Positions 15,175 through 62,820 of a DNA stretch of 64,000 nt are shown piece by piece; positions within the stretch are counted from its first letter, which is position 1, and every line of letters begins with the position of its first letter. The stretch is from Methylacidiphilum infernorum V4 (GTDB lineage: Bacteria; Verrucomicrobiota; Verrucomicrobiia; Methylacidiphilales; Methylacidiphilaceae). The stretch is taken from NCBI RefSeq assembly GCF_000019665.1, contig NC_010794.1, positions 1,054,001 through 1,118,000 on the forward strand, in the 5' to 3' direction. The translations under genes were made by a program, and so were the position numbers. The notes beneath the pieces were generated by a model. It searched no databases, was not told the origin of the DNA, and saw nothing but the letters and a program-made list of their open reading frames with translations.

Positions 15175-16110
15175 TTAGCGTTCTTCTTTTCTTAAATTCA
15201 ATTTTTTGAGCAAGGCATAATCTTTTTCCAATTGAACATTGCTTTGGGTGAGTAATTTTTCACCGATGAAAATCGAATCTACACCCGCTAAATAGCACAA
15301 AGTGAGAGTTTTTTCATCGAGTAATTTTCTTCCTGCGGCAAGTCTTATTCTAGATAGCGGGAAGAGGATTCTGGTTGTAGCTATCATTCGGATAAGATCC
15401 ATGTAATCCAGGGGAGGCGTCCCATAAAAAGGAGTTCCTTCAATGGGCATGTAAACGTTGATGGGTATGCTCTCCGGGGCTTCGGGCAGGGAATACAGAC
15501 AGAAAAGCATTTCCAGTCTATCTTTTAGCCTCTCTCCCATGCCTATTATTCCACCAGAACAGAGTTTTAAACCTACTTTTTGTACAATTCTAATGGTTTG
15601 CAATCGGTCTTCAAAACGGTGAGTGGAGGCGATCCTTGGATAATAACTAGGACCCGTGTTTAAATTATGGTTATACACCTTAAGTCCAGATTCTTTTAAC
15701 ATTAAGGCGGTTTTTTCCGTTAAAAATCCGGCAGAAAGACACAATTCCATGCCCAGGGAACTGATCTTCGAAATAATTTTGCAAATCTTTTTTGTTTTTG
15801 TTTCTCCTTCGAATAACCCCCTCCAAGCCGCTCCAAGACAAAACCGGCTAGCTCCCTTTTCTTTAGCTTGCAATCCCGCTTGAAGGATCTCTTCTTCATC
15901 AAGTAATGCTCCTTTTTCGATAGGGGTTCGGTAGTGGGCACTCTGAGCACAATATTTGCAATCTTCACTGCAACCTCCGCTTTTGATGTTGAGAAGTTGG
16001 CAAAACTGTACCCCATTTCTGCCCGATAATTTTTTCGCTTGGAGTGCTTCCCCCAACAATTCATCCAGGGGTCGGTGATAGATCTGCTCAATAGCACAAT
16101 AATCCTTCAT
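15175..16110 (-). CDS. bioB: Biotin synthase
   Basis: BioB is a radical-SAM enzyme that inserts sulfur into dethiobiotin. The cluster motif CSEDCKYC lies at about residues 47-54, preceded by LLNIKSGG. Family segments YNHNLNTGPSYYP, GGIIGMGE and INVYMPIEGTPF follow. GGAGAG five bases before the ATG at 16110 selects this start over an in-frame TTG four codons upstream. The partner gene bioD is about 10 kb away at 25879; other biotin genes are not in this window. Confidence 0.95.
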   Translation of the reverse strand: MKDYCAIEQIYHRPLDELLGEALQAKKLSGRNGVQFCQLLNIKSGGCSEDCKYCAQSAHYRTPIEKGALLDEEEILQAGLQAKEKGASRFCLGAAWRGLFEGETKTKKICKIISKISSLGMELCLSAGFLTEKTALMLKESGLKVYNHNLNTGPSYYPRIASTHRFEDRLQTIRIVQKVGLKLCSGGIIGMGERLKDRLEMLFCLYSLPEAPESIPINVYMPIEGTPFYGTPPLDYMDLIRMIATTRILFPLSRIRLAAGRKLLDEKTLTLCYLAGVDSIFIGEKLLTQSNVQLEKDYALLKKLNLRKEER

Positions 16111-16336
16111 GGCTCTCCACAATATTCAATCTTTAGTTCCATAACAATGTTTTACCGATTTCCTTGTGGAAAAATCGGCTCGATTGAAAATATTAAAAAG
16201 TTTCCAACTGAACTTTTATAAAATTTTTCTCCGTCCTTTCGAATTCTTTACTAGGGGGTTTTTTTGATTTTCCATTTTTTTGCCGTTTCCCGGGTTTGCC
16301 CCTCTTTGAGTTGTTCCCTATATTGAAATTCATCCT

Positions 16337-17794
16337 ATGGTGATTCTTCGCCGTTATCCCCTCTGGATAGGCCTTTTTCTTTTATGGATGCTCTTGGCGA
16401 TCCTTAGCGTCGCTTTTGGGGTTTGCGGTCTAATTGCGTTGCTTTGGGGAGTTTCAGCCCGAATAGCTGCCGGGAAAGACAACCTCCATAAAGGAGCTTT
16501 GAGGATTGAAGAAAATCTAAAAAACGGTTTTGAACAAAAAGAGGCGCCGGGAAGCTCAAATTTAAATTTTATCATTGCCAGTTCTCTTTCTTCCTTTAGC
16601 GGAGTAGAAGGGGGGCTGTGGAATATGGAAAAAGGCTATATCGCTTATAGTTATCCTACCTATGAAGGGCCGTTAAAAATGGACGTGCCTTCAGCAGAAA
16701 AAAATCGAATTATTCGTTTATCTCAGCAATCTCTAAAAGAAAAAAGACCTCTTTTTGGTCGGTTTGATGGCACAAGAGAAAGCCTCCTTCTTTATGTTAA
16801 ACCCTTGAATTTGAAGGATAATGATACCGTTATCTGGACTATGACCCGTGTTCCGATTCGGCTGGTTTCCGATTATGAGAAATTAATTTTCTTTTTGTCT
16901 TCAATTTTGATTTTTTCTCTTCTTCTCGGTATTTTTGGATTACGCATACTCCAATCTTGGTCAAGAGAAATTTCGCGGCTCGAAAATATTATAGCAACTA
17001 CCCCCCCTGATCAGATTCCCTCTCTTCCTTTAACAGGTTATCGGGAATTGGATAAACTTGTTGAGACATTGGTTGGAGCAAGAAAAAGCCTTATTGATGA
17101 AAAAAATAGAAAAGAAGAGCTCTTGAAAAAAATTTCAAAAAATGAACGCATCGTCACTTTGGGGAAGGTAGCGGCCACGCTTACCCATGAATTACGCAAC
17201 CCTTTGGCGACCATCCAACTTGAAGTTGAAAATGCTTTGCAGTCCAAGGATAAAGGAAATAAAGAGCCGCTAGAATGCGTTCAAGAACAAGTAGAGCGGA
17301 TGAAAAAACTCTTGGATAGTATCGTCCTCTTGTGCCATGCCGGAGAAATAACTCCGCAAGAGAACGATCTTTATCCTTGGCTTAAGTCGACGGTTAAGCC
17401 CTATGAAGCCGCTGCTTTTAAACATGGAGTCGATTTGAGAGTCGTTCCCTGGAAGGGGAGTTGGTGTTTTGACCCCCAGGGCATGTCGAGGGTTTTAGGC
17501 AATCTTTTACAAAATGCCCTTGAACATACCCCAAAAGGGGGATGGATCGAGGTGAAAGTGGAAAAAAAAGACGATAAACTGTGTATCTCTGTAGAGGATT
17601 CCGGGAAGGGAATCGAGGATGAGATTCGTGAAGAAGTCTTTGAACCTTTTTTCACCAAAAAAAGTCATGGTTTTGGGCTGGGATTATCTATTGTCAAAGA
17701 GATTGTCGAATCGCATAATGCTTGCATAGAATGCAAAGCGGGAAGGGAAGGAGGAGCTCGATTTGAGATTGAACTACCATGGCGAATATCCTGA
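16337..17794 (+). CDS. Sensor histidine kinase (NtrB-like)
   Basis: This is a membrane-bound kinase of a two-component system. Hydrophobic segments near residues 7-33 and 178-200 frame an extracytoplasmic sensor region. A HAMP-like linker follows, then a dimerisation helix with the phosphorylated His in LTHELRNPLATIQ (~283). The ATPase domain has the N box NLLQNALEHTPKGG, the G1 box VEDSGKGI and the G2 box GFGLGLSIVKE. Its 3' end overlaps the response regulator gene by 16 bases. The signal it senses is not apparent. Confidence 0.92.
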   Translation: MVILRRYPLWIGLFLLWMLLAILSVAFGVCGLIALLWGVSARIAAGKDNLHKGALRIEENLKNGFEQKEAPGSSNLNFIIASSLSSFSGVEGGLWNMEKGYIAYSYPTYEGPLKMDVPSAEKNRIIRLSQQSLKEKRPLFGRFDGTRESLLLYVKPLNLKDNDTVIWTMTRVPIRLVSDYEKLIFFLSSILIFSLLLGIFGLRILQSWSREISRLENIIATTPPDQIPSLPLTGYRELDKLVETLVGARKSLIDEKNRKEELLKKISKNERIVTLGKVAATLTHELRNPLATIQLEVENALQSKDKGNKEPLECVQEQVERMKKLLDSIVLLCHAGEITPQENDLYPWLKSTVKPYEAAAFKHGVDLRVVPWKGSWCFDPQGMSRVLGNLLQNALEHTPKGGWIEVKVEKKDDKLCISVEDSGKGIEDEIREEVFEPFFTKKSHGFGLGLSIVKEIVESHNACIECKAGREGGARFEIELPWRIS

Positions 17795-19107
17795 TCGTTG
17801 ACGATGATTACGCATTCCGTCTTGCGTTTTCCAAAACCGTTCGTTCCTTGGGTCACACCGTTTCAGGAACTTCAGAGGTTCCAAAAGCCCTAGAATTGGC
17901 GCAGCAAACCGATCTTATTTTCCTGGACTTAAAACTTAAAGGGGAGGATGGTCTTAGCCTTCTTGAAGAAATGCGCAAGTTAGATAAAAAGCCTCCCGTC
18001 ATCATCCTTACAGCCTTTCCCAATAGTTTTAATACGATAGAAGCGATAAAAAAGGGGGCTTTTGATCATCTGACTAAACCCATCAAAAAACGGGAAATCC
18101 AGGATGTTATCGAACGAGCTTTGAGCAGTACATCTTCTCTATTTTCTTTAAAAGTTCAATCCAAAGGACAGGAGGAGCTCATAGGTGAGAGTGCAGCCAT
18201 GCGAAGAGTTCAAAAATTTATTGGATTTGCCGCTTGCTGTGACTTCCCCGTGCTGATATCCGGGCAGACGGGAACAGGAAAAGAACTTGTTGCCCGTGCT
18301 ATTCATCGGCATAGCGCCAGGGGAAATGGACCTTTTGTTGAGGTCAATTGTGCCGCTTTTCCGGAAGCTCTTTTTGAAACTGAATTCTTTGGCCATACTA
18401 AAGGCTCTTTTACGGGAGCATTTAAAGATCGAAAGGGAAAGTTCATGGAAGCCACCGGGGGTACTCTTTTTTTGGATGAAATAGCCGAAATGCCTTTGAC
18501 GATGCAGGCAAAACTTTTAAAGGCCCTTTCCGAAAATAAGATTCAGCCTGTGGGTTCAGAAACCGATTATCCTATCGATGTCCGAATCATCGCCGCCACC
18601 AATAAGAACCTTCTCGATCTTGTCATGGGTGGAAAGTTTAGGGACGATCTTTTTTATCGTATCCAGGTTTTACAAATTGAACTTCCTCCCTTGCGAGAAA
18701 GAAATTCCGATATTCTTTTACTTGCAGAATATTTTATCGAGAAATACTTTCCCGGCTCATCAAAAAAACTGACTTTAGCCGCCCAGAAAGCCCTTCTGGA
18801 GTATCCCTGGCCCGGGAATGTCAGGCAGCTTGAAAATGTTATTCGCCGTGCAGGTATAACTTCCCGGGGACAGTTGATCGATGTTGGAGACTTGGATATT
18901 AGCCTGCCCACGGACAAAGAGCCCGGATTAAACAAAGAAGATTTCTTGCAATGGGATTTTTTTTCTGCCATTGCCAAGCTTGAAAAAATGTTGATAGAAA
19001 AAGCCCTTAAAGAAAGCCAGGGAAACCGTACCGAAGCTGCTCGTTTATTGAATATCCATCGTAGCCTGCTTTATCTTAAAATGAAAGAGCATGGGATTGA
19101 TCAGTAA
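17779..19107 (+). CDS. Sigma-54-dependent response regulator (NtrC family)
   Basis: An N-terminal receiver domain has the phosphoacceptor Asp in LIFLDLKLKG (~51) and the conserved Lys in LTKPIKK. The AAA+ domain has Walker A GQTGTGKE (~165), the sigma-54 contact loop GSFTGA in place of the more usual GAFTGA, Walker B GGTLFLDEIAE, and an R-finger region. The C-terminus carries a Fis-type helix-turn-helix (GNRTEAARLLNIHRSLLYLK). It would activate sigma-54 promoters when phosphorylated by the overlapping kinase gene. A near-consensus sigma-54 promoter sits 140 bases downstream, pointing to an adjacent target. Confidence 0.95.
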   Translation: MANILIVDDDYAFRLAFSKTVRSLGHTVSGTSEVPKALELAQQTDLIFLDLKLKGEDGLSLLEEMRKLDKKPPVIILTAFPNSFNTIEAIKKGAFDHLTKPIKKREIQDVIERALSSTSSLFSLKVQSKGQEELIGESAAMRRVQKFIGFAACCDFPVLISGQTGTGKELVARAIHRHSARGNGPFVEVNCAAFPEALFETEFFGHTKGSFTGAFKDRKGKFMEATGGTLFLDEIAEMPLTMQAKLLKALSENKIQPVGSETDYPIDVRIIAATNKNLLDLVMGGKFRDDLFYRIQVLQIELPPLRERNSDILLLAEYFIEKYFPGSSKKLTLAAQKALLEYPWPGNVRQLENVIRRAGITSRGQLIDVGDLDISLPTDKEPGLNKEDFLQWDFFSAIAKLEKMLIEKALKESQGNRTEAARLLNIHRSLLYLKMKEHGIDQ

Positions 19108-19136
19108 TTGAAGATAGACCTTGGTCCGTACATTAT

Positions 19137-19169
19137 AAAGACAGTTTTTGATCTCTCTGTCTTTTTTTT
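19137..19169 (+). terminator. Intrinsic terminator after the response regulator
   Basis: The arms AAAGACAG and CTGTCTTT form an 8-bp stem around a 12-base loop, running straight into a T-tract. It lies 29 bases after the regulator stop, separating the two-component operon from the downstream barrel gene. Confidence 0.75.
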
Positions 19170-19248
19170 AGTCAATCCTTCTTTTATTTTTCTTCATTTG
19201 GCCTATCCATTCCAGGTTTGCTCCTAGGACCTTTACTGGTCCGGTTCA

Positions 19249-19264
19249 TGGCACAGGCTTTGCT
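19249..19264 (+). promoter_or_regulatory. Sigma-54 (-24/-12) promoter upstream of outer-membrane barrel gene
   Basis: The sequence TGGCAC-AGGCT-TTGCT matches the sigma-54 consensus TGGCAC-N5-TTGCW completely. It points toward the barrel gene that begins about 100 bases downstream and follows directly after an NtrC-family regulator gene. Two dyads with GACC/GGTC arms (19117-19126 and 19227-19242) could be activator sites, though their spacing is not typical for both. Confidence 0.75.
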
Positions 19265-19365
19265 CGACGAAAAGCCCATGAATAAATGGAAAGCTTATGC
19301 GCTGGATTTTCTTTAACCTCTTTTTTTTAGCAAAGCGGTTTTATGGGCTGGGCCCAAAGACAGAA

Positions 19366-20070
19366 ATGAAGGTATTCTATTTTCCCTGGCTTTTGTTTGT
19401 ATTGGTCCTGTTTTTAACGATGAGGGGTTTTGCGCTGACCATTGGAGAGGACGCAGGCACATTGATTGAAGAAACTCAAGCTGTATCCTTGGAAAAAAAG
19501 AACAAAGAAAAACTGAGTGGTTTTTTTGTTGCGGGATTCGTTGGTCCCCAGTGGATTCGTTCAGAAGGCGGCCACTTGGACCCTGGGAATAAACCCGTTT
19601 CCATCAATAATGATTTTAGTGTCATTTTTTCTCCGACCTTTGGCTACTATTGGTTTGATCCCAAGCGATTAGGCCATTTTAGTTTTACCCTGGAATTGAC
19701 GTCCGCATACAATGGTTCGAGTATTTCACTCAACCAGGGATCTCGTATTCAAACCCTTTCTACAAATACAGGGCTCGTTTTCCTGTTCGGCACGGTAGGC
19801 TACCGGCTGACAAGGTGGGAGCCGATTGTAGGTATAGGGACTGGAATAGGAATTCTGGCTTTGCACGGGGAAGGAGTGCAGATTGTACAAACCGCACTTG
19901 CCGACATAGGTTTTCGTTACCACTGGAATGACAAGTGGTCCCTGCGCATCGAGTCTTTCATGGGTTGGCTTGGTCCATCAAAGCTAAACGTGGGAAATCA
20001 AGAAGTTCATTCTATACAATATTTTTCAAATAACTTTGTCGTGGGTATTGGTTATGCCTTGGGAAAATGA
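19366..20070 (+). CDS. Predicted outer-membrane beta-barrel protein
   Basis: The 234-residue protein starts with a signal peptide (MKVFYFPWLLFVLVLFL, cleavage probably after FA) and continues as alternating hydrophobic/polar strands rich in aromatic residues and glycine. Examples are GFVGPQWIRSEGG, FGYYWFDPKR, VGYRLTRWEPIVGIG, and the final strand FSNNFVVGIGYAL, a classic barrel C-terminus. A start 23 codons upstream is possible but would put a second hydrophobic segment before the signal. It is a candidate target of the neighbouring sigma-54 two-component system. Its transported substrate is unknown. Confidence 0.7.
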   Translation: MKVFYFPWLLFVLVLFLTMRGFALTIGEDAGTLIEETQAVSLEKKNKEKLSGFFVAGFVGPQWIRSEGGHLDPGNKPVSINNDFSVIFSPTFGYYWFDPKRLGHFSFTLELTSAYNGSSISLNQGSRIQTLSTNTGLVFLFGTVGYRLTRWEPIVGIGTGIGILALHGEGVQIVQTALADIGFRYHWNDKWSLRIESFMGWLGPSKLNVGNQEVHSIQYFSNNFVVGIGYALGK

Positions 20071-20191
20071 TCTTTTAGATTAGAGATATATAAGAATTTA
20101 TGCCTCCCTATCTTCCCCCTTTTGTGAACGGAAAAGATTCCTGGAATAGCTTTAGGATGAACTTCAAAGAGTAGAATTGAAAAAAGAAAAT

Positions 20192-20265
<74 letters not shown>

Positions 20266-20323
20266 ATCTCTATAAAGAAGTAAAGCAAAGAAAACCAGAA
20301 AATCAAGGCTATTTTAGTGGCTC

Positions 20324-20659
20324 TTAGGAAATTTCCACCTCTTTGATTTTATTGAGAATATGGCTTTTTGAAGTTACTCCAATCTGTTTTCCTTTAACCT
20401 GGCCTCCTTTAAAGATTAATAGTGTAGGAATAGATTGGATGGAAAATTGATAAGCCAAATTAGGTTCTTGATCGACATTGACTTTTACAAACTTAACCTT
20501 GCCGTCAAGCTCCTTGGCTAATTCATCTAAGACAGGGCTAAGCATATGGCAGGGGCCACACCATTCAGCCCAAAAATCAACCACTACAACCTGTGGAGAT
20601 TTTAAGACCTCGTTGTCGAAATCTTTGGATGTTACATTTTGTATCAATTGAGAAGCCAT
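20324..20659 (-). CDS. trxA: Thioredoxin
   Basis: A cytoplasmic disulfide reductase of 111 residues with the active site WCGPC at residues 33-37 in the context VVDFWAEWCGPCHML. The cis-proline segment SIQSIPTLLIF and the C-terminal GGQVKGKQIGV complete the fold. AGGAG precedes the ATG at a normal distance. Thioredoxin supplies electrons to reductases and repairs oxidised thiols. Confidence 0.95.
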   Translation of the reverse strand: MASQLIQNVTSKDFDNEVLKSPQVVVVDFWAEWCGPCHMLSPVLDELAKELDGKVKFVKVNVDQEPNLAYQFSIQSIPTLLIFKGGQVKGKQIGVTSKSHILNKIKEVEIS

Positions 20660-62454: not shown

Positions 62455-62820
62455 CGTCCTTCCGCGTTTGAAACACCAGCATTCAGCCGGGGGAAAAAAG
62501 CGCGGCCTCCGTTGGTTGGGGCTTCCCTCAGCAGACCTGAGGAAGCCGTTTTTTTTGCCCTTACGGGCCTTGTTTCGCACCCCTTGCGGGGCGTATCCTC
62601 TCGGGAATGTTGCATGATAGCCGTATGCCGGAGTCCGCCAGCGTCCTTGCCCTCGCGCCTGGCTACAGCTCCGGCTTCGAGAGGTTGGGACTTTAGGAAG
62701 CATCCCAACGCCTGTCTTTTGCTCTCCATGCAAGGTAGCGGACTTGTTACCGCTTTCCCTGGTCAACCTGAGCCTGCGCTTACCCGCAAGCTCCGCCTTT
62801 TAGGGCGGGGTGGTTGACAT
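62455..62820 (+). ncRNA. GC-rich structured segment resembling an IS605/TnpB right end
   Basis: This 366-base block is much GC-richer than its flanks and dense in stem-loops on the plus strand: GTTGGGA/TCCCAAC (62684-62709), CCCC-TTGC-GGGG, GCCC-TTAC-GGGC, and a final CTCCGCC/GGCGGGG hairpin (62791-62810). It ends TGGTTGAC, the form typical of right ends of IS200/IS605-type TnpB elements, where the omega RNA scaffold ends. GTCAACC at 62762 is complementary to GGTTGAC at 62812, a possible long-range pairing. No tnpA or tnpB coding sequence remains. Whether the RNA is made is unknown. Confidence 0.5.
62521..62556 (+). terminator. Strong intrinsic terminator inside the structured segment
   Basis: GCTTCCCTCAG pairs with CTGAGGAAGC (10 bp with one bulged C) around loop CAGAC. 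CG and eight T follow. It would stop plus-strand transcription, although no plus-strand gene ends here, which suggests it arrived with the mobile sequence or terminates a small RNA. Confidence 0.7.

Follow-up and report, generated by a model that had tools for sequence, protein, structure and literature searches.

A conserved sigma-54 promoter between an NtrC-type regulator gene and a predicted outer-membrane barrel gene in Methylacidiphilum, and its probable activation by the adjacent kinase-regulator pair

Introduction

Sigma-54 (RpoN) promoters are recognized by their -24 and -12 elements, and the mechanism by which bEBPs act upon them is likewise well established. The described systems closest to the locus reported here are those of the ZraSR, AtoSC and NtrBC type. 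It has in common with them the -24/-12 spacing, the presence of rpoN, and a REC-AAA+-Fis-type HTH regulator partnered by a membrane kinase; it differs from them in its target, a lineage-specific outer-membrane barrel, and in that NtrC, AtoC and ZraR, the NCBIfam models nearest to the regulator, are all matched below their cut-offs. A second point of comparison is the Desulfovibrio vulgaris regulome, for which the accessible part of the description (PMC4641369) gives the consensus tGGcacg / tTGCt and two-component regulators with a GSFTGA loop, as found here; unlike in that regulome, the -24 element in Methylacidiphilum is mostly TGGCAT, and the targets are different ones.

In Methylacidiphilum strain SolV, the parts of two studies available to us (PMC3404531, PMC5623727) indicate that NtrC-family genes change little across nitrogen and oxygen conditions, and in those same parts no mention of the barrel was found. 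One of these genes, ntrC1 (Mfumv2_1349), may be the ortholog of the regulator described below, judging by rough position only. No description of this promoter or of the barrel was found in the portions accessible to us of the literature on Methylacidiphilum sigma-54, rpoN and its regulon, GSFTGA/GAFTGA, OmpW regulation and leaderless promoters, including PMC5623727, PMC12316311, PMC4641369, PMC9543262, PMC6688271, PMC10992012, PMC3404531 and PMC3162934. The promoter type and the two-component activator are standard; the novelty lies in the target and in the comparison across the genus.

Results

The window, by which we mean the whole 64,000-nucleotide stretch of Methylacidiphilum infernorum V4 DNA that was analyzed, belongs to a genome (G000) made up of a single contig of 2,287,145 bases. 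It carries, on the forward strand, the gene of a 485-aa sensor histidine kinase (16337-17794), which contains HisKA and HATPase_c domains and two hydrophobic segments about 135 aa apart. The catalytic half of the kinase is nearest to the AtoS/ZraS models; its sensor part had no Pfam match reaching the cut-off, only one below it, and the structural model of this domain, built from two sequences, was too poor for use (pLDDT 49.5). The kinase gene is overlapped by 16 nt by that of a 442-aa regulator (17779-19107, forward strand), in which Response_reg, Sigma54_activat, AAA lid and HTH_8 domains are combined with a GxFTGA loop, here GSFTGA, placing it among the response-regulator-type bEBPs of the NtrC family. 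Elsewhere in the window, a HEARO RNA (Rfam RF02033, 98.7 bits) was noted at 62593-62818 on the reverse strand.

The presence of GSFTGA in place of GAFTGA had been singled out in the initial annotation. The sequence is indeed there, and is common to the regulator orthologs of three further Methylacidiphilum genomes (G001, G003 and G004), but the G002 ortholog has GAFTGA; among 38 loci from two bEBP searches (one gene counted twice), GSFTGA was found in 10 and GAFTGA in 24. GSFTGA is also, in the accessible part of PMC4641369, among the variants expected to keep activation in D. vulgaris. The loop was thus rejected as a special feature and is regarded as an ordinary variant.

Downstream of the regulator gene lies that of a predicted small outer-membrane beta-barrel of 234 aa (19366-20070, forward strand), followed on its 3' side by a tRNA-Met gene on the opposite strand. 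The barrel's open reading frame as listed is longer and has an ATG further upstream, at 19297; translation probably starts at 19366 instead, because in the alignment with G002 the start of the signal peptide falls there. No family in Pfam or NCBIfam matched the protein from the window, and one barrel ortholog from the sister genus had a weak, below-cut-off match to OMP_b-brl. The N-terminus resembles a signal peptide by eye, and a model based on six sequences shows eight long strands, at modest confidence (pLDDT 63.7, pTM 0.57), as expected of the OmpA/OmpW class of barrels. The Foldseek hits were outer-membrane barrels, whose TM-scores over the query were around 0.5. In structural alignments the model scored Z 18.6 against NspA (2.1 A over 148), 17.1 against short OmpA (2.6 A over 160), 16.7 against OprG (2.4 A over 176) and 16.6 against OmpW (2.4 A over 164), with identities of 10-17% in the top eight alignments to known eight-strand barrels of this class. 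The modeled likeness to barrels of the OmpA/NspA/OmpW kind is compatible with a channel as well as with none, and the proposal made at the outset that outer-membrane permeability is controlled from this locus finds no support beyond that likeness. Relatives of the barrel occur in 12 of 40 genomes, all from the family of the window genome. In G004 the barrel gene is split over two reading frames, by sequencing error or as a pseudogene.

Between the two genes, at 19249-19264 on the forward strand, lies the sequence TGGCACAGGCTTTGCT, an exact match to the TGGCAC-N5-TTGCT consensus, with TGGCAC at -24, TTGCT at -12 and a five-base spacer, just as the initial annotation had it; GG and GC are ten bases apart within TGGCAY-N5-TTGCW, as in sigma-54 promoters. 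It is located 141 nt 3' of the regulator gene and about 100 nt 5' of the barrel gene. The exact form TGGCAC-N5-TTGCW occurs once in the window, compared to a mean of 0.04 in shuffled sequence, where at least one copy appeared in 4 of 100 shuffles; the looser TGGYAY-N5-TTGCW also occurs once, compared to 0.15. Absence of rpoN had been named as an observation that would speak against a promoter here; the gene was looked for in the genome and found (Sigma54_DBD match, E 2.4e-59).

The site was then compared across the genus. In all five Methylacidiphilum genomes, regulator and barrel genes are adjacent and the site is kept in the same place, 138 to 144 nt past the end of the regulator match, as TGGCACAGGCTTTGCT in G000, TGGCATAGTCTTTGCT in G002, TGGTATACAACTTGCT in both G001 and G003, and TGGTATAAAACTTGCT in G004. 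Compared with G000, 9-10 of the 11 core bases match, whereas identity falls to 38-49% in the aligned intergenic DNA on the upstream side. By their coordinates, the orthologs of regulator and barrel are separated in 6/6 genomes of the sister genus (on different contigs in three drafts), and no 11/11 match was found upstream of the six barrel orthologs there, three of which have a 10/11 match inside an open frame. The link between promoter, regulator and barrel is thus specific to Methylacidiphilum.

A genome search for the same promoter form, as had been proposed, yielded 18 matches to TGGCAY-N5-TTGCW in G000, compared to 2 for the reversed pattern; TGGCAT is the usual -24 element, present in 16 of the 18, and TGGCAC occurs in only two. 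Over the five genomes, TGGYAY-N5-TTGCW was found 116 times (18, 19, 28, 27 and 24), against 14 for the reversed pattern and 36 and 40 for spacers of four and six bases, respectively. These off-spacing controls imply that about one third of the 116 matches may be background, and a single match alone is therefore no proof. The motif at 19249 is nevertheless more than chance, since the window should contain only 0.04 copies, the genome has rpoN, and in the five genomes the correct spacing is about three times as frequent as spacings one base shorter or longer. As the site is moreover kept in every genome of the genus examined, we consider it very highly probable that 19249-19264 is a genuine sigma-54 promoter.

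The surroundings of all 116 matches were fetched and the downstream proteins grouped, using only the longest frame per site, so that groups may be split. NifQ, NifW, TonB receptor plug, TonB_C, glyoxalase and YkuD were named by Pfam; the names amtB, PII/glnB, nifA, nifB, dnaK and pmoC were given by eye. Six groups recurred in every genome: a TonB-dependent receptor, nifB, a gene of the nif cluster, amtB, a PII-like protein and the barrel, whose promoter therefore belongs to the sigma-54 core of the genus; glnB, TonB and nifA followed in 4/5. When seven proteins were rechecked against the 116 downstream stretches, the barrel was recovered in 5/5 genomes, the glyoxalase-family and YkuD genes in 4/5, dnaK in 3/5, NifQ and a small protein in 2/5, and NifW in 1/5. 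Groups confined to G001, G003 and G004 include, by eye, sites within coding sequence, and can be explained by the close relatedness of these genomes.

Several of the other sites drew attention in their own right. The amtB ATG lies 12 nt past its sigma-54 site in 5/5 genomes, near the predicted transcription start, and that of the TonB-receptor gene lies 15-16 nt past the site in 5/5, again only a few bases from the predicted start; the receptor's start codon is uncertain, because in G000 its frame is open through the site and holds an earlier ATG. In 3/5 genomes (G000, G003, G004), only 11 nt separate the end of a TGGCAY-N5-TTGCT site from the ATG of dnaK, so that a sigma-54 transcript from this site would be nearly leaderless. 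A TonB-like gene has a conserved site in 4/5 genomes, with a GACC/GGTC dyad upstream in G002, and a TGGCACGCATTTTGCT site lies 65 nt 5' of a pmoC-like gene (named by eye) in G002 only. We suggest, tentatively, that sigma-54 in Methylacidiphilum could serve an envelope branch beyond nitrogen (TonB-dependent receptor 5/5, TonB 4/5, barrel 5/5), and that several promoters (TonB receptor, amtB, dnaK) could give leaderless or near-leaderless transcripts.

The barrel is probably a transcription unit of its own, because the kinase-regulator operon is followed by a terminator-like hairpin (AAAGACAG-12-CTGTCTTT, then a T run; 19137-19169, forward strand; fold -7.6 kcal/mol). This likely terminator escaped the terminator scan, in which loops end at 8. 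The hairpin and T run also make it less likely that barrel transcripts arise solely by read-through out of that operon. From the promoter geometry, transcription is predicted to start at about 19275 (19274-19275, forward strand; 12 nt past the C of the -12 GC, +/-1), and with translation beginning at 19366 the leader would be about 91 nt long. A promoter for the kinase-regulator pair itself was also sought: none of the five stretches has a sigma-54-like site ahead of the kinase gene on the forward strand, the stretch from G001 ending after 176 nt at a contig end, and autoregulation of the pair was rejected on this account.

The upstream region was then searched for enhancers. The two GACC/GGTC dyads named in the initial annotation are present in G000, GACC-TT-GGTC at 19117-19126 and GACC-TTTACT-GGTC at 19228-19241, the latter just upstream of the -24 element; the former is not conserved in this form. 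Strict dyads are found upstream of the barrel in three of the five genomes (G000, G003 and G004) and are absent in G001 and G002, and their layouts differ (GACC-N2-GGTC and GACC-N6-GGTC in G000, GGTC-N12-GACC in G003 and G004). For these reasons the dyads remain candidate enhancers. Their counts exceed expectation (2 against 0.03 in G000, 1 against 0.02 in G003 and 1 against 0.01 in G004, the last two being close relatives), but the improbability in G000 is post hoc, as the motif was chosen from that genome. Among 65 sigma-54 sites of three genomes, only three have such dyads: the barrel in G000 and G003, and the TonB promoter in G002. Over the upstream 170 nt, generic dyads did not exceed shuffles in G001, G002 and G004, where 34/40, 13/40 and 35/40 shuffles, respectively, were as good; the figures were 3/40 in G000 and 1/40 in G003. 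Generic dyads were rejected as the enhancer, the G000 dyad being the terminator-like hairpin and that of G003 lying inside the end of the regulator gene.

Discussion

The best explanation of these data is that the sigma-54 promoter drives the barrel gene and is directly activated by the adjacent kinase-regulator pair, which we regard as quite probable. Through a signal at the membrane kinase (16337-17794), the NtrC-type regulator (17779-19107) would become phosphorylated; its AAA+ ring would bind upstream of 19249, touch sigma-54 via the GSFTGA loop and open the promoter; transcription from about 19275 would then lead to production of the small eight-stranded outer-membrane barrel. The observed part of this scheme comprises the promoter sequence, the presence of rpoN, the conservation in five genomes, the gene order and the domain content. 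We infer the transcription start and the nature of the signal, as well as the choice of the adjacent regulator over the other strong bEBPs: of the 12 Sigma54_activat matches in G000, seven are strong (weakest 141 bits) and five score 20-32 bits. Simple arithmetic gives a chance expectation of about 0.03 for one of 18 sites and one of 7 activators lying within 500 nt of each other. One further bEBP (a 674-aa frame, with GTFTGS for GAFTGA) adjoins a distant paralog of the barrel, at G000:C1:1483568 and 1484675.

Another bEBP, such as NtrC responding to nitrogen status, might activate this promoter while the adjacent regulator works elsewhere. Nitrogen genes account for many of the remaining conserved sigma-54 targets, the upstream dyad searches brought up no enhancer that is conserved and could serve the adjacent regulator, and sister-genus genomes keep the kinase-regulator pair with no barrel adjoining it (read in G006 and G007, otherwise from coordinates). 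Against this stands the adjacency of regulator and barrel genes in 5/5 genomes of the genus. The NifA pattern TGT-N10-ACA lies at 7 of the 65 sites of three genomes, all of them at nif-cluster genes, and does not precede the barrel in any of the three (G000, G002 and G003), and NifA control of the barrel was rejected accordingly. The NtrC-type pattern is also missing at the barrel, which says little, since none of the 65 sites has it. Activation by a bEBP other than the neighbor thus appears rather unlikely. Of the initial annotation's reading, the sigma-54 promoter of the barrel gene is supported, through rpoN and the 5/5 conservation; as to the direct target of the two-component system that it predicted, the neighbor is the likely activator, given adjacency in every genome and the lack of NifA-type sites, with dyads in 3/5 and in differing layouts.

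The conserved element could also serve a leader product, a short open frame or small RNA near 19278, instead of the barrel or besides it. A AAAGCCCATGAA block at the predicted transcription start is kept in 4/5 genomes, and in G000 a 12-codon open frame (19278-19316, forward strand) begins 3-4 nt past that start. The same ATG, 14 nt past the site, enters the barrel frame in G001, G003 and G004, however, and G002 has CTG in its place, so that a leader product is very improbable. Hardly credible, finally, is a chance match, with barrel transcription due to a promoter of sigma-70 type or to read-through: the looser pattern is expected to give 7-8 background matches per genome, as judged from the off-spacing counts, but shuffles, spacing controls, conservation in 5/5 genomes amid diverged intergenic DNA and the 5/5 grouping led us to reject a chance motif, and of the 9 sigma-70-like matches in 16000-20400, where 6.1 are expected, not one falls between 19108 and 19366.

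Taken together with activation by the adjacent pair, which we favor, the promoter provides a conserved and concrete target for an uncharacterized two-component system of acidophilic verrucomicrobial methanotrophs. The genome comparison suggests that the sigma-54 regulon of Methylacidiphilum reaches the outer membrane besides nitrogen metabolism, and this fits the proposal, as set out in the accessible part of PMC3162934, that sigma-54 controls the bacterial exterior.
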